Position numbers and translations under genes: made by a program
Notes under the pieces: generated by a model
Database searches by the model: none
Seen by the model: the letters and a program-made list of their open reading frames with translations, nothing else
Told to the model about the DNA's origin: nothing
Shown here: positions 8,104-20,803 of the stretch, piece by piece
How positions within the stretch are numbered: the stretch's first letter is position 1
Layout: each line of letters opens with the position of its first letter
Source: a virus
Virus record (IMG/VR): IMGVR_UViG_3300025886_000154
Location: 1 to 24,237 of that record
Length of the DNA stretch: 24,237 nt
Direction: 5' to 3' (one strand)

Positions 8104-8643
8104 ATGGCAGTTAGTAAAGAATATTTAGAACAATTAACAGAACTTCATAATCGGTCTAAATTTGGCAGTGGCGAAAGCATACCACATGTTGTGTCTGAAA
8201 TTTTAGAAAATAAAAATATTACTAGTATATTAGACTTTGGATCAGGAAAAGGACTTACATCTAATGCACTTGCTGAAAAATATCCTGATATAAGATTGTA
8301 CACATACGACCCAGTAACTAGTCCAATTAATTTGCCGCAATCAGTTGATATGATTTATAGTAGCGATGTACTAGAACATGTTGAACCTAATCTAATAGAT
8401 CAAACATTAACTGATCTTTTTAATCGAGCTTCAAAGTATCAGTATCATTTAATTGCATGTCACCCTGCAAAGAAAAAACTCAACGATGGTCGTAATGCTC
8501 ATTTAATTATTGAAACACCTAGATGGTGGAAACATAAATTAGAAACGTTTGGTTGGACTGTAGAATACGAAAAAATTACAGAACGCTACGTTAAAAAATT
8601 TAATATTAATTCTATAAAATATATTACGGTATTAAAAAAATGA
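8104..8643 (+). CDS. Class I SAM-dependent methyltransferase (179 aa)
   Basis: Probable small-molecule or sugar methyltransferase. SAM-binding motif I is LDFGSGKG (residues 43-50), followed by the acidic end of the next strand (LYTYDPV) and the motif IV-type segment DMIYSSDVLEHVEP (about 82-95), typical of the Methyltransf_11/23-like group. The C-terminal part WWKHKLETFGWTVEY also fits. The substrate cannot be read from the sequence. AAAGGA at 8092-8097 lies 6 nt before the ATG. A possible but weak -10 (TATAAG at 8080-8085) overlaps the uvsY end. It is the first gene of the glycan cassette and overlaps the FkbM gene by 4 nt (ATGA), indicating coupled translation. Confidence 0.85.
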   Translation: MAVSKEYLEQLTELHNRSKFGSGESIPHVVSEILENKNITSILDFGSGKGLTSNALAEKYPDIRLYTYDPVTSPINLPQSVDMIYSSDVLEHVEPNLIDQTLTDLFNRASKYQYHLIACHPAKKKLNDGRNAHLIIETPRWWKHKLETFGWTVEYEKITERYVKKFNINSIKYITVLKK

Positions 8644-9260
8644 AAAAAGTATATAACTATTGGATGCCCGACACTGATAATCATTTTGAAAGGCTTATAA
8701 CAAAACGTGTAAGAAACGGCGGCCCTCCTCAGTACCAAGATGATGTAAGAGATGAAGCATACAAATATGTAACAGATTTTGATCTAGTAATTGATGTAGG
8801 TGCAAACGTAGGATTATGGGCTGTGCACCTAGCAGAAAAATTTACACAAGTTATTGCATACGAACCAATGTATCAAGTGTACGAATGTTTGCATTTAAAT
8901 GTAAAAGATCTTAATGTACAAATTAACGAGTATGCATTAGGTAATATTAATAGTCAAGTTACTATTGAGTATAATTCTAATAATACAGGAGGTAGTTTTG
9001 TAAGTAAAGTTGGTACTGGAAATATATCAATCAAGCGTATGGACGATCTAAATTTACCAAAGTTTGGATTGTTAAAAATTGATTGTGAACGTCATGAACT
9101 TGAAGTCTTACAAGGTGCAACTGAAACAATTTTAAAATATAAACCAATTATTGTATGCGAACAACATGCCGACACTGAATACTGTGCAGGAAAATACCTA
9201 AAATCTCTTGGTGCTAAAGAAATTACTAATGTCAGAAAAGACTATATATTTGGTTGGTGA
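8640..9260 (+). CDS. FkbM-family methyltransferase (206 aa)
   Basis: SAM-dependent O-methyltransferase of the FkbM type, often found in polysaccharide or secondary-metabolite clusters. Motif I is IDVGANVG (residues 51-58), followed by VIAYEPMYQVYECLHLNV, and later the FkbM hallmark LLKIDCERHELEVLQGA. The C-terminal VCEQH is also typical. Length is slightly short for the family but the fold elements are all present. Start codon ATG overlaps the preceding methyltransferase stop (ATGA), so both are made together; a sugar or glycan substrate is the simplest reading of the neighbourhood. Confidence 0.9.
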   Translation: MKKVYNYWMPDTDNHFERLITKRVRNGGPPQYQDDVRDEAYKYVTDFDLVIDVGANVGLWAVHLAEKFTQVIAYEPMYQVYECLHLNVKDLNVQINEYALGNINSQVTIEYNSNNTGGSFVSKVGTGNISIKRMDDLNLPKFGLLKIDCERHELEVLQGATETILKYKPIIVCEQHADTEYCAGKYLKSLGAKEITNVRKDYIFGW

Positions 9261-9274: not shown

Positions 9275-10048
9275 ATGAAAATAGTTTTAGTTACAGGAGG
9301 CTTTGATCCTCTTCACTCAGGACATATTGCAAATTTTGAAAACGCAAAATCATTAGCTAGGCTTTCCGATGGAGAACTTTGGATTGGTGTAAACAGCGAC
9401 AAATGGTTGTCTCGTAAAAAAGGCATGCCTTTTATGTCCGTTGACGAACGTAAAACAATTATCAACGCACTTGAATGCGTTGATAATGTATTTGAATTTG
9501 ATGACACAGACGACACAGCAATTGATGCAATTCAATATGTGCAAAATATTCATCCTGATGCACAAATTATTTTTGCCAACGGTGGCGATAGAACTGTTGA
9601 TAATATTCCAGAAATGATTTTTGATAATGTTGAATTTGTATTTGGCATAGGCGGAACTGATAAGAAGAATTCTAGTAGCTGGATATTAGATGAATGGAAG
9701 ACACAAAAGACCAAACGCGATTGGGGATACTGGAGAGTACTAGATCACAAGCCTACTCAAGGTTATAAAGTAAAAGAGCTTGTAATTTATCCTGGTAAAA
9801 GTTTAAGTGATCAAAAACATTTTAAACGCAGTGAGCAATGGATGGTTCTTGAAGGCATTGTTAAAATGCAAACTGAATGGAATAATTTAATTGATATAAA
9901 ACATTTAAAACCACATGGATTACCATATGAAATTGGTAAACAAGTTTGGCACAAAGCATCAAATCCAGGAGATAAAAATGCCCATATATTAGAAATACAA
10001 TGGGGGAAAGAATGTATAGAAGATGATATTGAACGGAGACATAGATGA
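9275..10048 (+). CDS. Nucleotidyltransferase-cupin (mannose-6-P isomerase type II-like) fusion
   Basis: Two domains in 257 residues. Residues 1 to about 140 form a cytidylyltransferase-like domain (TagD/HldE-C family) that would activate a sugar- or polyol-phosphate with CTP or ATP: HSGH signature at 14-17 in GGFDPLHSGH, IGVNSDKWL, VDERKTIINAL, and a C-terminal KNSSSWIL in the place of the usual ISTT loop. Residues about 149-257 resemble the C-terminal cupin of ManC/ManA type II enzymes: WGYWRV (150-155), YKVKELVIYPGKSLS, KHFKRSEQW (181-189), VWHKASNPG (224-232) and the ending IEDDIERRHR. An NDP-sugar precursor enzyme with an attached isomerase/epimerase-like cupin is the likely reading; the exact substrate is unknown. 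It overlaps the following glycosyltransferase by 4 nt. Confidence 0.85.
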   Translation: MKIVLVTGGFDPLHSGHIANFENAKSLARLSDGELWIGVNSDKWLSRKKGMPFMSVDERKTIINALECVDNVFEFDDTDDTAIDAIQYVQNIHPDAQIIFANGGDRTVDNIPEMIFDNVEFVFGIGGTDKKNSSSWILDEWKTQKTKRDWGYWRVLDHKPTQGYKVKELVIYPGKSLSDQKHFKRSEQWMVLEGIVKMQTEWNNLIDIKHLKPHGLPYEIGKQVWHKASNPGDKNAHILEIQWGKECIEDDIERRHR

Positions 10049-10722
10049 AGGTATTTATAGGATACGATACTAGAGAAGACATAGCATATCAGGTATGTAA
10101 ACACAGCCTTGAATCTCGAAATAAAGATGTCAAAGTCATTCCGTTAATTCAGCACACACTTAGAAAACAAGGCTGGTACACTCGTCCTATAGATAAACTA
10201 GCAAGTACTGAGTTTACATTTACAAGATTTTTAATTCCAGAGCTAACTAATTTTAATGGATGGGCATTGTTTTGTGACAGTGATATTATTTTCTTAAATG
10301 ATGTTAAAGAATTGTTCGACCAAGTTGATGACAAGTACGCAGTAATGTGTGTTAAGCATGACTATACACCTAAAGAAGGTACTAAAATGGATGGACAAAC
10401 ACAAACAGTTTATCCTCGTAAAAACTGGTCAAGTGTGATGTTGGTTAATTGTAGTCATTCGAGTAATAAAAAATTAAACACAGCACTTGTTAATAACGAG
10501 TCTATTACCGGTGCATACTTACATCGATTTAGCTGGTTAAATGATGACGAAATAGGTGAGTTTAGTTATGAATGGAATTACTTAACCGACTGGTATATAG
10601 AAGGAACCCCCAAGGCATTACATTATACCGAAGGTGGCCCTTGGTTTGAAAATTATAGAGATTGTCCATTTAATAGAGTATGGAAAAAGGAATTACAGGA
10701 TATGATGCAAATTGTTAGTTAA
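10045..10722 (+). CDS. GT8-like glycosyltransferase (225 aa)
   Basis: Probable GT-A-fold sugar transferase. The N-terminus MKVFIGYDTRED is typical, and the metal/nucleotide-binding DxD is seen in FCDSDIIF (D78, D80). The middle region has YPRKNWSSVMLVNC, and the C-terminus holds ALHYTEGGPWFENY, which fits the HxxGxxKPW-like end motif of GT8 enzymes in a variant form. There is no membrane segment. Donor is likely a nucleotide sugar, perhaps the product of the adjacent nucleotidyltransferase-cupin (inference). Start codon overlaps the previous stop (ATGA). Confidence 0.85.
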   Translation: MKVFIGYDTREDIAYQVCKHSLESRNKDVKVIPLIQHTLRKQGWYTRPIDKLASTEFTFTRFLIPELTNFNGWALFCDSDIIFLNDVKELFDQVDDKYAVMCVKHDYTPKEGTKMDGQTQTVYPRKNWSSVMLVNCSHSSNKKLNTALVNNESITGAYLHRFSWLNDDEIGEFSYEWNYLTDWYIEGTPKALHYTEGGPWFENYRDCPFNRVWKKELQDMMQIVS

Positions 10723-11728
10723 AGTGTTTATGCTAACTGCAGGTCACAATTATGAACAGACCTTATTACGTAGTATGAAAGAAGGTATTGAAAAACAATT
10801 AATACCAGACTCTGAAATAGAAATACATAAATTAAAACAAATTAATAAAATAGTTAACCTAGGTCTAGGCGTAAATTATGACTATAATGAAAAATACACT
10901 AAATGTGACGTAGCAGTAATGCTAGGTAGTTGGAAGCCTCTACGTGGAAGTATGCAACATCAAGTAAGAACTGATATTAAAAATAATGCAAAATGTTTTA
11001 TTTGTATTGAAACTCCAATACTTAATCGTACTCTTGAATTTGAAAAATGTAATTATTTTCGAGTAGGCGTAAATGGCTTTCTGAATAAAGATGCATATTT
11101 TGGTCCTAATATAAAACGTCCTGATGACCGTCTATTAAAATTAGGAAATTTAAAATTTTCAGGATGGCATAATCAACTTGGCAATAAAATTGTAATTGCA
11201 ATGCAACTCACAGGTGATGCAAGTTTGCGAGGCAATAATATTAACGAATGGTGTTTTGATACTATTAATACATTAAAAATGTATACTAATAGGCCTATTG
11301 AAGTAAGGATGCACCCAGCAGCAAGTTCTAAAGGAATGGAAGCATATAATCCTATATTACAAAAAATAGTCTATTCAAAAAATGATTACTCAAATGTTAC
11401 GTTTGTTGACGGTAAAACTATTTCATTAAGAAATCAACTTTCTGATGCTTACTGTCTTGTATCATACTCTAGCGGCACTGCTATAGATGCACTATGTATG
11501 GGAATTCCAAATATCACATGCGACGAAGGAAGTTTTGCATGGAATGTTTCTGAAACTAAGTTAGAGAATATTGAAAATTTACTTTTACTTAAAAAATCTG
11601 CTATAAATCAACATCTAAGTAATTTAGCATATTGTCAGTGGACTCAAGATGAAATGAGCTCCGGTTTAGTATGGAATCATTTAGTATCTGGTATAAAAAA
11701 TTATTTACAAGATGATTTACTTCTATGA
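10712..11728 (+). CDS. KpsS-like glycan transferase paralog A (338 aa)
   Basis: First of four diverged paralogs (A-D) in this window. It has CDVAVM (65-70), FRVGVNGFLN (107-116), MQLTGDASL (164-172), RMHP (199-202) and the C-terminal SYSSGTAIDALCMGIP (251-266), followed by AYCQWTQDEMSSGLVWNH. The order Q..GD - RxHP - S.tAi.A...GIP resembles capsule Kdo transferases (KpsS/KpsC) and CDP-polyol phosphotransferases with GT-B folds. Exact activity is unknown. The start is uncertain: TTG at 10712 (AGGA 11 nt upstream) and GTG at 10724 are possible, ATG at 10730 would trim the first strand. It overlaps the GT8-like gene by 11 nt and the next paralog by 4 nt. Confidence 0.65.
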   Translation: MLVKVFMLTAGHNYEQTLLRSMKEGIEKQLIPDSEIEIHKLKQINKIVNLGLGVNYDYNEKYTKCDVAVMLGSWKPLRGSMQHQVRTDIKNNAKCFICIETPILNRTLEFEKCNYFRVGVNGFLNKDAYFGPNIKRPDDRLLKLGNLKFSGWHNQLGNKIVIAMQLTGDASLRGNNINEWCFDTINTLKMYTNRPIEVRMHPAASSKGMEAYNPILQKIVYSKNDYSNVTFVDGKTISLRNQLSDAYCLVSYSSGTAIDALCMGIPNITCDEGSFAWNVSETKLENIENLLLLKKSAINQHLSNLAYCQWTQDEMSSGLVWNHLVSGIKNYLQDDLLL

Positions 11729-12573
11729 AAATACGAAAAAATCCAAAACGAGGACTAGGATGTCGAGTAGCACATATATTTTCGCCTACAATTGATAATA
11801 CTACATATTTTAATTCTTATTTAAAATTGTTTGAGAACGGTATTAATCAAGCAAAATTAAGTACATGGAATAATACATCAACAGTTGATTCACCTTTATT
11901 AATCCGAGGAATGGCATCGCATTCTCAGGAAGCAATTCATTATTGTTGGAATAATAAGAAAGATTTTTATTATATCGACTCGTCGTATTTTGGAAATGAA
12001 ACTAGTAAAAATAAAATTTGGCATCGTGTTACAAGAAATAATTTACAAAATCTTACACCTATTAAAGATCGTCCACAAGATAGATTAAACAAAATATTAC
12101 CAAATTATAAGTACAAAGAATTTAATACAGGACGTAAAATTTTAATTTGCCCGCCTAGTAATAAAGTAATGAAATTTTGGAATCAACCGCGCCAAGAAGA
12201 ATGGATAAAAATTGTTATTAAAGAACTACAATTAGTAACAACCCGTCCAATTGAGGTTAGATTAAAACCAGGAAGAGCTGAACGTATTACATTTAATACA
12301 CTTGCTCAGGCATTACAAGATGATGTTTATTGCTTAGTAACTTATAATAGTATAGCTGCTATTGAAGCACTTATGAACGGCATTCCAGCAATTGCACTAG
12401 GGCCGAACGCTGCAACAACAATGTGTAATACTTCTTTATCTCAAATTGATAATTTAAATACATATAATGAAGAACAGATGGTAAGATATCTTTCACATCT
12501 TAGCTATTGTCAATTTCATATCAATGAAATGGAAGATGGCACAGCATGGAGAATCTTACATGGAGGTTGTTAA
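11725..12573 (+). CDS. KpsS-like glycan transferase paralog B (282 aa)
   Basis: Second paralog. The N-terminal half is the most divergent, lacking a clear CDVAVM but keeping FYYIDSSYF and WHRVTRNNLQ at the equivalent places. Further on, KILICPPSN stands where A has KIVIAMQLTGD, RLKP (169-172) replaces RMHP, and TYNSIAAIEALMNGIP (196-211) matches A closely, followed by LSYCQFHINEMEDGTAW. The loss of the His in the RxHP motif could mean altered or lost catalysis. The ATG overlaps the stop of paralog A (ATGA). The next paralog begins 4 nt after its stop, with its ribosome-binding site inside this gene. Confidence 0.6.
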   Translation: MKIRKNPKRGLGCRVAHIFSPTIDNTTYFNSYLKLFENGINQAKLSTWNNTSTVDSPLLIRGMASHSQEAIHYCWNNKKDFYYIDSSYFGNETSKNKIWHRVTRNNLQNLTPIKDRPQDRLNKILPNYKYKEFNTGRKILICPPSNKVMKFWNQPRQEEWIKIVIKELQLVTTRPIEVRLKPGRAERITFNTLAQALQDDVYCLVTYNSIAAIEALMNGIPAIALGPNAATTMCNTSLSQIDNLNTYNEEQMVRYLSHLSYCQFHINEMEDGTAWRILHGGC

Positions 12574-12577
12574 CTAT

Positions 12578-13495
12578 ATGAGTAGTGTTCCTGCTGGTAA
12601 CACTAATATACAAAAAGAACAACTAATTAACTATTTTCATGAGGGCATTTTACGACACTCTCAAGATACAAGCAGTATTAACTATGATCAAAAATTAATA
12701 CCGTGCGATGTTGCAGTAATGCAAGGTTGGGTGTATGCTAACACAAATCCGCCACATTTAAAATTACGTAAAAATATAATAACTCAACAGTTAAATCAAA
12801 AAAAGTATGTTATTGTAGCAGATGCAAACTTATTTAGATTTGCAGATGACACCAACGCACATGGATATTTACGCTATAGTGCAAACGGAATTTTTCCAAC
12901 GACTGGTAACTATTTTGATAATATTATAGATACATCTCGTTGTAATCAAATTTTACAACATCATAATATAAGTCTACTGCCTTACAAAAAAACTGGATCA
13001 AAAATAATATTATGTTGTCAACGGAATAATGGCTGGAGTATGAAAGGAATACCAATTGAAGATTGGATTATAACTACAGTAAAGAAGATACGCAAATATA
13101 GTGACAGACATATTATAATAAGAGCACATCCAGGAGATAGAACTCAACGTAACTGGACAAAATTACCAAACATTCAGTCGTTGCTTAAAAAAAATAATCT
13201 ATCAATTAGTAACACTGGAATACCAATTCATCAAGATTTAGTCGACGCATGGGCTGTTGTAAATCATAATAGTAGTAGTATTGTTGGACCAATTATACAA
13301 GGACATTATGCATTTGTAACCGACAAAGAAGACAGTCAGTGTAAAGATGTTGCTGATGATGATTTTAGTAATATTGAAAATCCAAAAGAATTCAACAGAG
13401 AATACTGGATGCAACTGAAGTCAATGAGTCATTGGTCTTTTGAAGAACTTAAAAATGGACAGGCATGGAATCACATGCGTAATCATCTCCAATAG
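12578..13495 (+). CDS. KpsS-like glycan transferase paralog C (305 aa)
   Basis: Third paralog. CDVAVM is at 43-48, GYLRYSANGIFP parallels VGVNGF of A, KIILCCQRNNGWSMKGIPIEDW parallels the MQLTGD...NEW region, RAHP is at 172-175, and the end WSFEELKNGQAWNHM matches the shared tail. The typical IEALMNGIP segment is degenerate here (NSSSIVGPIIQGHYAF). The frame is open from 12524, but ATG 12578 is chosen because GGAGG (12562-12566) is 11 nt upstream and the earlier ATG would overlap paralog B by 50 nt without a ribosome site. The gene ends 13 nt inside the 3' end of the opposite-strand glycosyltransferase. Confidence 0.6.
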   Translation: MSSVPAGNTNIQKEQLINYFHEGILRHSQDTSSINYDQKLIPCDVAVMQGWVYANTNPPHLKLRKNIITQQLNQKKYVIVADANLFRFADDTNAHGYLRYSANGIFPTTGNYFDNIIDTSRCNQILQHHNISLLPYKKTGSKIILCCQRNNGWSMKGIPIEDWIITTVKKIRKYSDRHIIIRAHPGDRTQRNWTKLPNIQSLLKKNNLSISNTGIPIHQDLVDAWAVVNHNSSSIVGPIIQGHYAFVTDKEDSQCKDVADDDFSNIENPKEFNREYWMQLKSMSHWSFEELKNGQAWNHMRNHLQ

Positions 13496-14325
13496 TCTTC
13501 TGTTCTATTAACCATGATATCTTTAGGTAAACTTTTACCTATATTTTTTCTGTCGCCCTTCATGTGATCAATCCATTTACCCAGCACAGTATTAATTAAT
13601 GGATGTCCCCCGCCGCCGGTTTTAGCTTCTTTTAAATACATTTCTGCACTATAATCTAATACATTATTGTTAACAAATTTTAAATTATTTAAAATATGTC
13701 CAAACACATAACTGTCATGCCATTCTTCTAATTCAAAAATACCATTATCAGCGTCTTCATAATAACGTTCAAATTCTTTTAAGAATTGTATACACACAGG
13801 ATGATTTAAGTTCATGCCGTAAAAGCCACATTCTGGCCAGGTCTGTGATCCTTTGCCTCTACCCACATAGGTTAACCATTTATCGTTAGGTAATAATTTA
13901 TTAAATTCTTTGTGAGACCATTCGCTATGTACAAATGTATCAGCGTCCATCCATACTACCCAATCTTTACTACGGTTACACGCATCAAATACTGCATAGG
14001 TTTTATTAGAAAATCTTACAGCATTCCATTTAAATTCCTTATGCCAATCACGCGGCCTACGTGCTTTAATATTGTCTGGAGGTATGCCGTTTGCTTTTGG
14101 AATGTTTTTCCATTTTTCTTTAAATGCAATTAATTTAGGTAATTCAATATTTGCATTTAGTAGCGTTACTTGTTGATTATTTGAAATATAAGGAGCACAC
14201 TCTTCTGCATAAACTAATAATGTGATTCGTTTATCAACTTTTTGAATAAAACTATCAATAAATCTTTGACCATATTTTCTCATACCATCTGCATGAAATG
14301 TAGTAACCACAGTTATTTGAGACAT
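13483..14325 (-). CDS. Glycosyltransferase-like protein on the opposite strand (280 aa)
   Basis: Probable GT-A-type transferase. The start MSQITVVTTFHADGMRKYGQ is nucleotide-sugar-transferase-like, and the DxD motif is WMDADTF (D117, D119) at the end of a strand after WNAVRFSNKTYAVFDA. Further on come GRGKGSQTWPECGFYG and GGGGHPLINTVLG; no membrane segment is seen. I recall similar proteins in marine phages and metagenomes but no tested function. It is the only minus-strand gene within the cassette, placed between paralogs C and D and overlapping C tail-to-tail by 13 nt. TAGGA lies about 8 nt before the ATG on the minus strand. Its orientation suggests separate insertion or separate timing. 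Confidence 0.75.
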   Translation of the reverse strand: MSQITVVTTFHADGMRKYGQRFIDSFIQKVDKRITLLVYAEECAPYISNNQQVTLLNANIELPKLIAFKEKWKNIPKANGIPPDNIKARRPRDWHKEFKWNAVRFSNKTYAVFDACNRSKDWVVWMDADTFVHSEWSHKEFNKLLPNDKWLTYVGRGKGSQTWPECGFYGMNLNHPVCIQFLKEFERYYEDADNGIFELEEWHDSYVFGHILNNLKFVNNNVLDYSAEMYLKEAKTGGGGHPLINTVLGKWIDHMKGDRKNIGKSLPKDIMVNRTEDYWR

Positions 14326-14353
14326 TGCTTATTCCTATTAAATATATTAAAGG

Positions 14354-14361
14354 TATTTACA
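14354..14361 (-). promoter_or_regulatory. Possible late-type box TGTAAATA (minus strand)
   Basis: On the minus strand this reads TGTAAATA, one mismatch from TATAAATA, 28 nt upstream of the antisense glycosyltransferase start. It lies in the 37-nt divergent gap, which also holds the ribosome site of paralog D. Confidence 0.3.
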
Positions 14362-14362
14362 C

Positions 14363-15196
14363 ATGAAATTTAAATTATGGAAAGAATACGGTGCATTAAA
14401 TTCTATACCAGTGTTTGATGCATTTGCACAAGGATTAAATAACTATGGATTTACTATAGTTGACGATCATGATATTGCAGATGTTAATGTTATATGGAGT
14501 GTACTATGGCATGGCAGAATGGCCAAAAATAAAAAAGTTTGGAATTATAATAAGCCGACAATTGTATTAGAAGTTGGAGGAATAAAAAGGGGAACAACGT
14601 GGAAGGTAGGATTAAATGGTATCAATCGTGATGGGAATCTTGGCCCTAGTGGCAATAATAACAATCGTGCTAGGAGTTTGGGACTAGAACTAACACCGTG
14701 GAGAAAAACAGGAGATTATATTTTAATTTGTGGACAACATGATAAAAGCCTACAATGGGAAAATATGCCTCCAATGAGCAAGTGGATTATGCACACTATT
14801 GAAACTGTTCAATTATATTCAGATAAACCAATACTGTTTCGACCTCATCCTCGATGTCCTTTGCCTGATATTGAAAGTCAATATAAAAATGTTTATAGAC
14901 AGCGTCCTCAAAAATTACTAGATACATACGATGACTTTGATATGTCATTTGATAACACATGGGCAACAATTAGCTGGTCTAGCAATCCTGGAATACATAG
15001 TGTAATAGCTGGCGTGCCAGTGTTTACTGGACCAAGTAGTTTAGCATGGCCGGTATCAAATACAGGAACCGAAACTATCGATAATCCTCTAATGCCCAAT
15101 AGACAACAATGGTTAAATGACTATGCACACACAGAATATACAATTGACGAAATCACACAAGGCATTCCGCTAACATACTTGACATCTTTACTATAA
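14363..15196 (+). CDS. KpsS-like glycan transferase paralog D (277 aa)
   Basis: Fourth paralog, separated from A-C by the antisense glycosyltransferase. ADVNVIWSVLW replaces CDVAVM, WKVGLNGINRDGNLG parallels VGVNGF of A, YILICGQHDKSLQW parallels the MQLTGD region, RPHP is at 150-153 and SNPGIHSVIAGVPVF parallels the GIP segment. The tail DYAHTEYTIDEITQGIPL matches the shared YCQWT.DEM..G ending. The HP motif is the most canonical of the four. AAAGG (14349-14353) lies 9 nt before the ATG. The 3' end carries a sigma70-like promoter for the next gene. Confidence 0.62.
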   Translation: MKFKLWKEYGALNSIPVFDAFAQGLNNYGFTIVDDHDIADVNVIWSVLWHGRMAKNKKVWNYNKPTIVLEVGGIKRGTTWKVGLNGINRDGNLGPSGNNNNRARSLGLELTPWRKTGDYILICGQHDKSLQWENMPPMSKWIMHTIETVQLYSDKPILFRPHPRCPLPDIESQYKNVYRQRPQKLLDTYDDFDMSFDNTWATISWSSNPGIHSVIAGVPVFTGPSSLAWPVSNTGTETIDNPLMPNRQQWLNDYAHTEYTIDEITQGIPLTYLTSLL

Positions 15197-15213: not shown

Positions 15214-16413
15214 ATGATTAAAAATATCGAAGATTGCCTTGAGTCAGTTACTGGACTAACTGTGAATAATCCCATCAATATAGTAATTGACGAAAATGAC
15301 CAACATATTATATATAGTATTGCTAGACAAGTGTTTAAAGGAACTGCATTAACTGACAAGCAATATCATTTGATGCAAGCAAAATTATTAAAATATAAAA
15401 CAGAATTTGAAAAATTTGAAATATTTAATCTTAACGAAATAATTAATAATCTACGATCTCCGCTAAGGCAAGTTGATCGTCGAAAACTAATTACCATCTG
15501 CAAAAATACATCTGATGGATGGATTAAGGTACAATTTCCGTTTAGTAAAAAATTAATTGTTGTAGTTGAAAGAATAATTTTTCAAAATAAGTCTAACCAT
15601 GTTCATCGTAAAGGCTCAAATTCTCATTTTTTTAAATTATGCGAAACAACAATTTATGATATTGTACACAATTTAAAAGATAAAGGATTTATAATTGACC
15701 AAAATTTAGTAAACTTATATCATAAAATTGATAACGTAAAACAAAATAAAGGGTTACATTTACCGTCATATGATTCAGATAAATTTAATAACTTAACTGA
15801 TACTGCAATTGAATTTATTAAAAACGATCTAGACAATATTAATGATAATATTATTATACAAGATCGTAGACGAAGATTTGGACTAAATTATGTACAATTA
15901 ATTGATAACAATCTTGAAGAAAATATTAAAGAAATTATCTATAGACAAAATACACTAGTTAGACTATGTCCAATATCTAACAGTCTACCAAGTATTCATG
16001 ACGCTCTAGTGCAACTAAAAAGATTTCCATTGTTAGTATTATTAGACAAAGACGACTGTCTTGAACAGTTATCATCAATGCATAAATCATTTACTACTGT
16101 GTCAACTAATGAACAAATAGTTCTTTTTAGATTGCCTAACGAAGATAATTATAATATTAACAATTATATTAAAGACAGAAATTTTAATACTATACTTGAC
16201 AATGATACAAAAATAGTATATATTTGTAAGGATAAACTACCAAAATTATTGTTTAGATTAGACTGGAAGCCAATGTGTGTATTTTCACTAACAGGAAAAC
16301 GTCATAATACAATGATTTCAAAATTTATCAAAGATGTATGTGATTTAATCATATTTCACGAAAATTTACCATCAACCTTTCATGGAGTTAAAGATAACCA
16401 ATATGAGTTGTAA
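15214..16413 (+). CDS. Unknown protein upstream of uvsW (399 aa)
   Basis: No characterised family is recognised. It is lysine- and asparagine-rich, very AT-rich, without membrane segments. The N-terminal part contains TALTDKQYHLMQAKLLKYK, a phrase I associate with phage replication/helicase-linked proteins, but this is only an impression. No Walker A or Toprim motif is evident. A basic RRRRFG occurs near residue 220 and the C-terminal part alternates hydrophobic strands (KIVYICKDK, VCDLIIFHENLP), as in a Rossmann-like or helicase C-lobe fold. It overlaps the chosen uvsW start by 11 nt, suggesting coupled translation and a role with UvsW. No Shine-Dalgarno sequence is seen. Confidence 0.55.
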   Translation: MIKNIEDCLESVTGLTVNNPINIVIDENDQHIIYSIARQVFKGTALTDKQYHLMQAKLLKYKTEFEKFEIFNLNEIINNLRSPLRQVDRRKLITICKNTSDGWIKVQFPFSKKLIVVVERIIFQNKSNHVHRKGSNSHFFKLCETTIYDIVHNLKDKGFIIDQNLVNLYHKIDNVKQNKGLHLPSYDSDKFNNLTDTAIEFIKNDLDNINDNIIIQDRRRRFGLNYVQLIDNNLEENIKEIIYRQNTLVRLCPISNSLPSIHDALVQLKRFPLLVLLDKDDCLEQLSSMHKSFTTVSTNEQIVLFRLPNEDNYNINNYIKDRNFNTILDNDTKIVYICKDKLPKLLFRLDWKPMCVFSLTGKRHNTMISKFIKDVCDLIIFHENLPSTFHGVKDNQYEL

Positions 16414-18380: not shown

Positions 18381-18731
18381 ATGGGAATTAAAGCAGGAAA
18401 AATTTGGGGAGGTACTGAATTAATACACGCTAATGGTGTACTTGAATTTCATCGTATTGAATACAATGCAGGATTTAAGTGTAGTGAACATGAACATCAA
18501 TTTAAATGGAACGGATTTTATGTAGAGTCAGGCAAGATGCTCATACGTGTATGGCAAGACGATCAAGGATTAGTAGACGAAACTATCCTTAATGCAGGAG
18601 ACTTTACTCAAGTTAAACCAGGAAAGATTCATCAGTTTGAAGGCCTTGAAGATGGAGTAGCATTTGAATTGTATTGGGCTGAATTCAATCATGATGATAT
18701 TGTAAGACGCACTAGTGGTACTGAAGTTTGA
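18381..18731 (+). CDS. Small cupin protein (116 aa)
   Basis: Single-domain cupin. The metal-binding first motif is SEHEHQFKWNGFYVESGK (about 35-52) and the second is GDFTQVKPGKIHQFEGL. The ending FNHDDIVRRTSG resembles the C-terminus of type II mannose-6-phosphate isomerase cupins (EDDIVR...GR), as does the cupin half of the gene at 9275. Function is likely sugar-phosphate isomerisation/epimerisation or binding, but small cupins vary widely. AGGAG is 6 nt before the ATG, in a leader identical over 13 nt to that of uvsX. Its TGA shares a base with the next ATG (TGATG). Confidence 0.8.
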   Translation: MGIKAGKIWGGTELIHANGVLEFHRIEYNAGFKCSEHEHQFKWNGFYVESGKMLIRVWQDDQGLVDETILNAGDFTQVKPGKIHQFEGLEDGVAFELYWAEFNHDDIVRRTSGTEV

Positions 18732-18997
18732 TGATAGATACATTAATACCCGGTGAAGCACTTATATACGAACGAGCTAACGGTGTTGTTTATGCCCGAT
18801 ACAGAGATCCTCCGCATTGTTCAAAGCCAAGATGGATTATAGGTGGAAGTAATGAAGCGTTTGATAGAGCAACAAATAATTTGTTTAGCTATAGCGAATG
18901 GCAACACATGATACAACTTAGTGAAGATAATCCTACTTTAAAAAAACAAATTGACAGAATGTTAGTAATATACTATACTATAAAAGACGAGGAGTAA
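18731..18997 (+). CDS. Conserved small unknown protein (88 aa)
   Basis: Starts MIDTLIPGEALIYERANGVVYARYRDPPH, a pattern I recall from small hypothetical proteins of marine T4-like phages. No function is known to me. The middle has KPRWIIGG and the C-terminal half is helical. The frame is open from a TTG at 18728, but ATG 18731 overlaps the cupin stop (TGATG) and is the natural coupled start. The last part of the gene contains a near-consensus promoter for the next gene and its ribosome-binding site. Confidence 0.7.
   Translation: MIDTLIPGEALIYERANGVVYARYRDPPHCSKPRWIIGGSNEAFDRATNNLFSYSEWQHMIQLSEDNPTLKKQIDRMLVIYYTIKDEE
18951..18979 (+). promoter_or_regulatory. Near-consensus sigma70 promoter before the gp62-like gene
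   Basis: TTGACA (18951-18956), 17-bp spacer, TATACT (18974-18979). Predicted start near 18986, giving an 18-nt leader that includes GAGGAG (18989-18994), 9 nt before ATG 19004. It lies in the 3' end of the preceding coding sequence. This is the best promoter match in the window. Confidence 0.65.
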
Positions 18998-19003
18998 TAT
19001 AAT

Positions 19004-19474
19004 ATGAAAAACAAAGAACTTGATTTGTTTAAAGATTTATTACCAGCAATTGACAATAATATAAAAAGCATGTACGATGCTGGAACTGATGTTGGGCGCA
19101 AAGACATCAAAGGCGATTTATGGAATCTCAACAGGTATGTAAGTAGTGTCAAAGGTAATTATGATTCGCAAGCATTTTCAGTTCTTAAAGTAAATGAATA
19201 TTATAATAAAAATTGGAATGTGCTCGGGGGAACTAATCATAATAAATTACAATGGCAATTGTTGTGTGTTGCTGGAAATAAAGGCAGCAAAAAGTTTCAC
19301 CCATGGATTGGATTAAAAAAGAAAAAGGATGACAGTAGTAAAGCAGTTAAGTTTCTATGTCAATTATATCCTAATATAAAATTAGACGAGGCTGAATTAC
19401 TTGCTAAAATATCTACAAAAAAAGAACTTAAACAGTTGGCTCGAGACCACAATATCGACAATGCCAGCTTCTAA
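19004..19474 (+). CDS. 62: Probable sliding-clamp loader small subunit, gp62-like (156 aa)
   Basis: In T4, gp62 joins gp44 to load the gp45 clamp. The sequence is short and helical. The middle FSVLKVNEYYNKNW and KLQWQLLCVAG, followed by KKFHPWIGLKKKK, correspond to the segment of T4 gp62 ending PRGKRYGKWAKL. The C-terminal STKKELKQLARDHNID corresponds to the T4 end KQLKKLALEW. Length is close to marine-phage gp62 (T4: 187 aa). It has its own strong promoter. gp44, the usual neighbour, is not in the window. The identification rests on diffuse similarity, so it is probable rather than certain. It overlaps the Zn-finger gene by 14 nt. Confidence 0.6.
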   Translation: MKNKELDLFKDLLPAIDNNIKSMYDAGTDVGRKDIKGDLWNLNRYVSSVKGNYDSQAFSVLKVNEYYNKNWNVLGGTNHNKLQWQLLCVAGNKGSKKFHPWIGLKKKKDDSSKAVKFLCQLYPNIKLDEAELLAKISTKKELKQLARDHNIDNASF

Positions 19475-20150
19475 CAAACCTTACGTATGTGAGTATTGTA
19501 AAACTGGTTATGCTAGAGAAAAAACTTTAGCAGTACATATGTGTGAGAAAAAACGCAGGGCATTACAAAAAGATGAAAAACGTGTACGTCATGGGTTTTA
19601 TGCATTTGGTAGATTTTATAAATTAAGTGCAGGCGCCCAAAAAGAAAAAACATATAAGGAATTTTGTGATAGTCCTTATTATAATGCATTTGTTAAGTTT
19701 GGTAGTTTTATTAGTAATGTAAAACCCTTGTATCCTGAAAAATACATCGACTATGTAGTAACCAGCGGAGTTAAATTAGATCATTGGTGTAATGAAGAAC
19801 TTTATGAAAAATATGCATTAGATTTAATATTAAAAGAAGATGTAACTACTGCACTTGAAAGGTCTGTAGTAACCATGGTAGAATGGGCCAAAAAAAATAA
19901 TACTAGCTGGAATAAATATTTTGCCAATGCTAGTACTAATCTAGTAGTCTGGCACATTAAGGATGGAAAGATAAGTCCTTGGTTATTATTAAATTGTAAA
20001 AGTGGAAAAGCAATGTTAGGCACACTTAATGAAGAACAACTAACTATGATATTTAATAATCTTAATCCGCAACATTGGGCTTTAAGATTTAAGAGACAAA
20101 AAGATGATGTTGCACTAGTAAAAGAAGTTGTTGAAGGAAGTAACCTATGA
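19461..20150 (+). CDS. Conserved marine-phage protein with N-terminal zinc finger (229 aa)
   Basis: The N-terminus holds a C2HC zinc-finger-like motif: C10, C13, H26, C28 in YVCEYCKTGY...LAVHMCEKKRR, followed by a basic stretch, suggesting nucleic-acid binding. The remaining domain (RHGFYAFGRFYKL, SPYYNAFVKFG, VTSGVKLDHWC, DGKISPWLLLNC, LNEEQLTMI) matches a protein I recall as conserved in marine T4-like phages with no known function. The frame is open from TTG 19401, but ATG 19461 puts the first residues just before the zinc finger and is chosen. It overlaps the gp62-like gene by 14 nt and pyrF by 4 nt. A role beside the replisome is inference. Confidence 0.78.
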   Translation: MPASNKPYVCEYCKTGYAREKTLAVHMCEKKRRALQKDEKRVRHGFYAFGRFYKLSAGAQKEKTYKEFCDSPYYNAFVKFGSFISNVKPLYPEKYIDYVVTSGVKLDHWCNEELYEKYALDLILKEDVTTALERSVVTMVEWAKKNNTSWNKYFANASTNLVVWHIKDGKISPWLLLNCKSGKAMLGTLNEEQLTMIFNNLNPQHWALRFKRQKDDVALVKEVVEGSNL

Positions 20151-20803
20151 AAATCATTGTTGCACTTGATTATACTAATCCTCTCGATGCACTAGAAATG
20201 GCTGCAAAACTACGTCATTATGTTGACGGATTTAAAACCAATCATACATTGTGGAGTCAAAGTGTTTATATTAAAGATTATACAGAAGGTAAAGAACTTT
20301 TTGTAGATTGTAAACTATGGGACACACCAAATACTGTTAAACAAGTTGTACAAAAAATTGTAGACAAAGGTGCCACAATGACCACTGTATGCACACACAA
20401 CAATGAAGCAGTATTTGAAGAACTCGAACAGTTTTCAGATCAAATTAAATTGTTAGGTGTTACATATCTCACTAGTTGGAGCGGCAGTGACTTGTTAGAC
20501 ATATTGCACTACTTGCCTAAAGGTGCAGATACAATGTGGAGAGAAAACATCAAAAGAGTGCAAAAATATGGGTTCTCAGGTATGATATGTAGCCCAACAG
20601 ACTTAGCAATAGTAAAACCCTTAGCACAAAATATGATAACAGTCTGTCCTGGCATCGGAAGTAACAAAGGACAAGTGAGAGCAGTTACGCCTAGACAAGC
20701 AATCAACTTAGGCGCCGATTATCTAATTATTGGTAGGACTATTACCGAGTCTGATGATCCTATAAGAACAATAAGAGAGATTAGAGAAAATGCCAGATAT
20801 TGA
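20147..20803 (+). CDS. pyrF: Orotidine-5'-phosphate decarboxylase
   Basis: Last step of UMP synthesis: OMP to UMP plus CO2. The TIM-barrel signature is clear: IVALDYTN at the start (D8), GFKTN (K30), the catalytic DxKxxD set as D54-K56-D59 in FVDCKLWDTPNTV, CPGIGSNKGQ near the C-terminus, and GADYLIIGRTITESDDP, the phosphate-gripping end with its Arg. All residues expected for activity are present. The 218-aa length matches compact archaeal/bacterial forms (E. coli about 245). A KGPDC/other HPS-related decarboxylase is possible because the families share the fold, but the DxPNTV context favours PyrF. It overlaps the genes on both sides (4 and 14 nt) and is therefore part of the replication operon. 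Confidence 0.88.
   Translation: MKIIVALDYTNPLDALEMAAKLRHYVDGFKTNHTLWSQSVYIKDYTEGKELFVDCKLWDTPNTVKQVVQKIVDKGATMTTVCTHNNEAVFEELEQFSDQIKLLGVTYLTSWSGSDLLDILHYLPKGADTMWRENIKRVQKYGFSGMICSPTDLAIVKPLAQNMITVCPGIGSNKGQVRAVTPRQAINLGADYLIIGRTITESDDPIRTIREIRENARY

Follow-up and report, generated by a model that had tools for sequence, protein, structure and literature searches.

What does a phage do with four related transferase genes in a single gene cluster? The question is raised by IMG/VR virus record IMGVR_UViG_3300025886_000154, of which positions 1 to 24,237 are analysed here (this whole stretch of 24,237 bases is called the window). A first reading of the letters alone, the sequence-only reading, had described four diverged, low-identity paralogs of a KpsS-like transferase in one cassette, and had proposed an ancient duplication followed by specialisation. 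We confirm that the four genes, A to D, are homologous, and we favour the view that they arose by ancient duplication within a phage branch of the retaining transferase fold for ulosonic acids such as 3-deoxy-D-manno-oct-2-ulosonic acid (Kdo), forming the core of a glycan-assembly cassette. This cassette, which comes from a large marine-type, T4-related phage, probably builds a phage-specified glycan.

10712..11728, plus strand: paralog A, 338 amino acids, with E100, Q165, D169 and R199-x-H201-P
11725..12573, plus strand: paralog B, 282 amino acids, with PPSxK and R-x-K181-P-x-R-x-x-R replacing QxxxD and RxHP
12524 (or 12557 or 12578)..13495, plus strand: paralog C, up to 323 amino acids, with QRNNGWSM; Gln and RxHP kept
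14363..15196, plus strand: paralog D, 277 amino acids, best conserved of the four, with E70, Q125-H-D127-K-S129-L and RPH162P

Homology and fold of the four paralogs

The window copies share about 23-30% identity. Their pairwise local alignments score 11.7 to 34 standard deviations above shuffles, with blastp E values of 1e-7 to 1e-20, and A used as a query against the window recovers B, C and D at E 1e-14 to 1e-20. When four clade alignments are compared profile against profile with hhalign, the check that the sequence-only reading had itself proposed, the relationship is borne out (A-B 3e-35, C-D 7.6e-32, A-D 1.5e-29, B-C 4.7e-23; probability 99.5-99.9%). In the motif order on which that reading was built, the [CA]DVxV element is missing from B and a true Q-x-x-G-D is present in A alone. 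Its start positions hold for A, B and D, whereas the start of C is uncertain between the three positions listed.

AlphaFold models of D (predicted local distance difference test, pLDDT, 95.2) and of B (88.8) were compared with the PDB, A and C being tied to D and B by the profile comparison. Both models rank the Kdo transferases of glycosyltransferase (GT) families GT99, GT107 and GT140 above all other folds. Foldseek lists nothing but retaining beta-Kdo transferases (KpsC, WbbB and KrkA) in its first 28 rows for D; VIA-align gives Z 12.8-13.8 against KpsC (root-mean-square deviation 3.7-3.9 over 225-235 residues), 12.1-12.5 against WbbB and 10.7-11.0 against KrkA, with other GT-B folds at 10.1 or below. 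For B, KpsC reaches Z 11.9 and the first unrelated fold 8.9. The assignment to a KpsS/KpsC type is upheld by these matches. In sequence searches it fares differently, since PF05159 (Capsule_synth, the KpsC/KpsS family; gathering cut-off 20 bits) is unmatched by all four window proteins even at E 1; TagF, named in the sequence-only reading as another candidate, trails the Kdo transferases by a wide margin in the B model, where no TagF chain ranks better than Foldseek E 0.007.

No Pfam or PHROGs family claims A to D above cut-off, nor does any NCBIfam family claim A or D, on which it was run. Pfam DUF6716 and TIGR04396 gave weak matches only, and TIGR04396 was not used for assignment because it matched 36 of 149 bacterial genomes, none above cut-off. 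Three relatives of the A/E-like kind (clades are described below) match PF05159, with E down to 1.6e-5; the bacterial PF05159 proteins, sampled from one phylum, lack the QxxxD/HP pair and were unusable for profile comparison. The family profiles did not find KpsC, and profile A4 gave no GT99/GT107 match; a weak match to WbbB spans RxHP to a Ser-Glu-Ala-Gly stretch. Because the sequence link is weak, we speak of a shared fold and a partly shared active site and not of membership in GT99, GT107 or GT140.

Active sites and clades

The nucleophile of WbbB, KpsC and KrkA is the Asp of a QxxxD motif (WbbB Asp232, KpsC Asp160, KrkA Asp193). The Gln of this motif binds the Kdo carboxylate, the His of an HP motif contacts the phosphate of cytidine monophosphate (CMP), and the role of general base falls to a Glu (PMC9587256, PMC10148158, PMC12887879). 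Judged by its aligned residues, A keeps this whole catalytic set: E100 (codon 11009-11011), Q165 (11204-11206), D169 (11216-11218, in QLTGDASL, compared with QTFNDMSV in KpsC) and H201 (11312-11314). Glu, Q-x3-D and RxHP are invariant in all 17 aligned proteins of the A/E/E2 type (A and 16 others). Residues and fold together suggest that A would take Kdo, or an ulosonic acid like it, from the CMP-activated form and transfer it in a retaining, double-displacement reaction. Asp169 would then be the covalent nucleophile and Glu100 the base, and His201 would sit at the phosphate of CMP.

The other paralogs depart from this set, each in its own way. Searching with D alone gave 80 loci and at least 150 candidates from viral contigs, while A or B as a single-protein query brought in hardly any relatives; a family hidden Markov model then collected 311 open reading frames (ORFs) in 90 sources, or 296 once re-fetched pieces of the window are excluded. 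The tree separates clades D (37 representatives), C (41), B (26) and A (4), plus smaller E, E2, F and G, with full or near-full clade support in a careful tree. In clade C the nucleophile position is Gly in 41/41 representatives (window codon 13031-13033) and Asp stands for Glu, with RxHP kept in 41/41. Clade D keeps Glu, Gln and RPHP in 37/37, but in its Q-H-[D/E]-K-S motif the Q-D spacing is two residues shorter than in A, so that the nucleophile column holds Ser by MAFFT and Asp127 by hhalign across a 2-residue deletion; the motif's carboxylate (Asp or Glu) is nearly invariant, one Gln having been seen. In B, F and G, Asp replaces Glu, Pro replaces Gln, the Asp is missing, RxK stands for RxH (in B, K181 is encoded at 12265-12267) and most have further Arg residues. 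Thus QxxxD with its Asp is absent from C and from B/F/G, the HP motif is found in every A, C and D representative, and the putative general-base column, assigned from sequence context, is Glu in A, E, E2 and D and Asp in C and B.

Are these changes signs of decay? The sequence-only reading had suspected so, and had proposed that the odd copies might be scaffolds. The loss of the RxHP His from B is real, yet its Lys is fixed in 26/26 B-clade representatives, and the 'degenerate GIP' segment of C is trivial, its Gly being kept in 41/41. The changes are clade-wide, and the ratio of nonsynonymous to synonymous substitution rates (dN/dS) has medians of 0.08 (B), 0.09 (C) and 0.15 (D), approximate values because dS exceeds 1. 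These low ratios mark B, C and D as constrained genes, with strong purifying selection on B and C, and argue against degenerate scaffolds; separate clades, each with its own fixed catalytic residues, fit ancient duplication and later specialisation.

C and D would use CMP-ulosonate donors with altered chemistry, a probable choice because the carboxylate-binding Gln and the HP motif are kept; D may use the Asp/Glu two residues upstream, and C has no nucleophile. B would use another donor, perhaps a nucleoside diphosphate (NDP)-sugar, its Lys181 and Arg residues standing where the other copies have the HP site, and this is probable because Gln, Asp and His are lost and a Lys/Arg cluster is gained.

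Multi-copy series, for which the sequence-only reading had suggested a survey of related phages, are widespread. Most loci hold three to five family copies, and in 34 related records the count is three in 17, four in 14 and five in 3. Nearly all of about 85 related phage contigs carry at least two of the lineages B, C and D side by side, some of them all three, and A is an optional extra found at four distinct loci only. The series in the window therefore does not stem from recent duplication, since C-, D- and B-side copies have coexisted through most of the phage group. In a tree with outside phages, C nests among A/E/E2-type sequences (support 96/86 and 95/89), together with A-type copies from one podovirus and from prophage-type loci, and so its Asp nucleophile was most likely lost secondarily. 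B-type domains are often fused to a GT8-like domain in relatives, giving proteins of about 520-590 amino acids. In fact, a close relative (locus L082) carries such a GT8-fused B-type module in place of A and thus has two tandem B-type copies; the exchanged segment spans 10648-11701 of the window and 3418-4488 of L082, with 89% and 97% identity on its flanks. One unit of the series has thus been swapped in nature.

The family also turns up under other labels. Related-phage regions occur in two contigs (PBPT01000016, 335 kb, locus L099; PBPT01000082, 153 kb, locus L100) of a metagenome-assembled genome (MAG) filed as Candidatus Neomarinimicrobiota RS350, and these contigs are probably misbinned phage. 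A scan of genome contigs with the E clade gave only phage contigs binned in a MAG; where other 'bacterial' genomes gave stronger matches, these came from a T4-like phage contig, a prophage and a short contig carrying the same genes of prophage type. Four strong structural homologues of D in BFVD come from Tetraselmis virus 1, a green-alga giant virus (A0A2P0VNK4, A0A2P0VP54, A0A2P0VP74, A0A2P0VP72), and two of them are named capsule polysaccharide biosynthesis proteins.

Donor supply, cassette and acceptor

If the paralogs use Kdo, where would the donor come from? KdsA (KDO-8-phosphate synthase) and KdsB (CMP-Kdo synthetase) make CMP-Kdo, and clustering of neighbouring ORFs shows their genes adjoining each other in relatives, some 4 kb downstream of D (for example L069:7257-8036 and L016:13652-14335). 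This neighbourhood lends indirect support to a role of the paralogs in Kdo transfer. KdsA scores above two NCBIfam equivalog cut-offs; KdsB is by far the best-matching family for its gene yet stays below the NCBIfam cut-offs. Of the 34 related records, 23 have KdsA (20 above cut-off, one just under it and two truncated where the contig ends) and 22 a member of the KdsB-type family, while KdsA at 38% identity or more occurs in only 4 of 50,697 general phage records. Both genes are present at 15 of the 20 distinct loci that are fully visible, and 12 of these 15 have no A-type paralog, so that Kdo, if it is used by the phage's own transferases, must there pass through C, D or B.

Several points weigh against a Kdo role. 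The 34 records are all related phages, so the presence of KdsA and KdsB is a trait of their lineage, and the records do not count as independent events. Both genes are missing from the window, whose record ends at 24 kb, and from several relatives with long records, in which case the host would have to supply Kdo. None of the phage records searched yielded KdsC or KdsD. Sequence similarity to the founders of GT99, GT107 and GT140 is not significant (best WbbB E = 0.022, family profile A2), and C and B are without the nucleophile of the known mechanism.

Around the paralogs, the window carries gp32, uvsX, a uvsY-like gene, uvsW, a primase-like gene and a T4-type terminase, and the run of glycan-type genes sits between the uvsY-like gene and uvsW. 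It reads, in order, two methyltransferases, a nucleotidyltransferase-cupin fusion, a GT8-like gene, A, B, C, an antisense GT-A-like gene and D:

8104..8643, plus strand: class I S-adenosylmethionine (SAM) methyltransferase
8640..9260, plus strand: FkbM-type methyltransferase
9275..10048, plus strand: HldE/RfaE-C-type nucleotidyltransferase fused to a ManC/PMI-type cupin, with a homologue in 80 loci
10045..10722, plus strand: GT8-like GT-A glycosyltransferase with a DSD motif, the kind fused to B-type domains in relatives
13483..14325, minus strand: GT-A-like glycosyltransferase with a DAD motif, with relatives in 85 of 90 loci
15214-16413: 399-amino-acid protein adjoining D, conserved next to D in 78 loci, with no Pfam or PHROGs match
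18381..18731, plus strand: cupin; in relatives KdsA-KdsB lie between it and the gene at 19004
18728-18997: 270-nucleotide ORF, sole content of that slot in the window

The GT-A-like gene between C and D occurs in both orientations among relatives, as if inverting. Further along, at 20147-20803, the window has PyrF (orotidine-5'-phosphate decarboxylase, above one NCBIfam domain cut-off), a phage-borne pyrimidine-supply gene that is possibly relevant to the use of cytidine triphosphate (CTP) and CMP-sugars.

On our best reading, drawn from sequences and models, the cassette would be modular, its paralogs adding successive units that are in part ulosonic acids; sequential addition of different units to one glycan, as the sequence-only reading had suggested, is plausible. 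The nucleotidyltransferase-cupin protein is the probable supplier of an activated sugar, and the GT8-like and antisense glycosyltransferases, the two methyltransferases and A to D would together build and cap a variable oligosaccharide on a candidate acceptor that may be either a host envelope glycan or a virion protein.

Which of the two? Transfer to virion proteins, a variant that changes the acceptor alone, is a real possibility, though we lean away from it. Single A-type copies lie in or beside head-tail genes of prophage-type loci (L108:8893-9816 and L109:1976-2791), where they adjoin a sialyltransferase-like gene (phrog_4603), and family members of Caulobacter phage CcrColossus lie near tail genes. 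The cassette studied here, however, sits among replication and recombination genes (gp32, uvsX, uvsY, uvsW), and the usual reading of LPS (lipopolysaccharide)-type clusters in jumbo cyanophages is that they modify the host surface (PMC7824862).

We find it unlikely, to about the degree of one chance among a few, that A to D share the Kdo-transferase fold only and use ordinary NDP-sugars, for instance an ADP-heptose-like donor from the nucleotidyltransferase at 9275, with KdsA and KdsB serving elsewhere, such as in Kdo supply for host LPS. B without Gln, Asp and His would suit such a scheme, as would a window devoid of KdsA and KdsB and a count of conserved partners in which the HldE-C-type nucleotidyltransferase (80 loci) outnumbers KdsA (33). 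What speaks for CMP-ulosonates instead is that the CMP-ulosonate site still has its Gln and HP residues in A, C and D, and in A its nucleophile and base as well, and that the phage records searched yielded no WaaA-type Kdo transferase (the inverting WaaA/GT30 enzyme, PF04413, has no match in the window or in 19 related records). That only A-type copies are enzymes, with B, C and/or D as non-catalytic scaffolds or regulators of active glycosyltransferases, is improbable: the nucleophile is missing from C and B, and B is often fused to GT8, but most phages with KdsA and KdsB carry B, C and D without an A-type copy, and the substituted positions are fixed to specific residues under a median dN/dS of 0.08-0.15.

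With the paralogs taken as ulosonic-acid-transferase relatives, we tentatively raise a further idea, which we hold to be less probable than our main reading: the fold may have split into three or four catalytic types, with an Asp nucleophile (A), Gly (C), a displaced carboxylate (D) and a Lys/Arg site (B), some of which would work on CMP-ulosonates or other donors through a mechanism that is new to this fold, CMP-Kdo being phage-supplied in most relatives.

Known relatives and meaning

KpsC (GT107, from E. coli and Thermosulfurimonas; PDB 6mgb, 6mgc, 6mgd, 8fuw, 8fux) is the best fold match of both models (Z 11.7-13.8), and A has its Glu, QxxxD-x-S and HP set. It holds two Kdo transferase modules in series, whereas the phage proteins are single-module; sequence similarity is not significant, and C, D and B depart at the nucleophile, B also at the His. 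The beta-Kdo transferase domain of WbbB (GT99; PDB 5fa0, 5fa1, 8csb-8csf; Z 11-12.5) shares RxHP and a Ser/Glu-Ala/Gly segment, and its E158, Q228, D232 and H265 have counterparts in A, with equal Q-D spacing and a D-H spacing of 32 vs 33; it differs in being longer and bacterial, and in matching the family profile at the non-significant E value given above. The N-terminal module of KrkA (GT140; PDB 9yfx, 9yfy, 9yfz; Z 9.2-11.0) shares the QxxxD and (K/R)xHP motifs, but its general base lies on a different element and no sequence match was found.

Phage LPS-type clusters and the occasional phage KdsA are already known. Sugar and LPS clusters of jumbo cyanophages have, as here, a HIGH-type nucleotidyltransferase, a cupin and paralogous glycosyltransferases, and are polymorphic among relatives; the words Kdo and KdsB do not occur in that description (PMC7824862), whereas here paralogs of Kdo-transferase fold are tied to KdsA-KdsB. 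Pelagibacter phage Mosig EXVC030M (MT647606) has a similar set, FkbM-type methyltransferases, a GT-A and a GT8 followed by two B-side family members, but two copies only and none in clade A, C or D. KdsA has been reported in a marine virus (PMC5332604), and cyanophage S-SCSM2R is annotated with KdsA-KdsB. In the literature searched, we found no description of phage paralogs of the Kdo-transferase fold or of their diverged active sites.

Few bacterial families of retaining Kdo transferases have been characterised. These enzymes were the first glycosyltransferases shown to use double displacement through a covalent enzyme-sugar adduct (PMC9587256). Here, phage lineages replace the nucleophile and the phosphate-binding His under strong selection, which makes the limits of that mechanism directly testable. 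The link to KdsA-KdsB suggests, moreover, that these phages write their own Kdo-containing glycan, which would be relevant to superinfection exclusion or to the decoration of virions.

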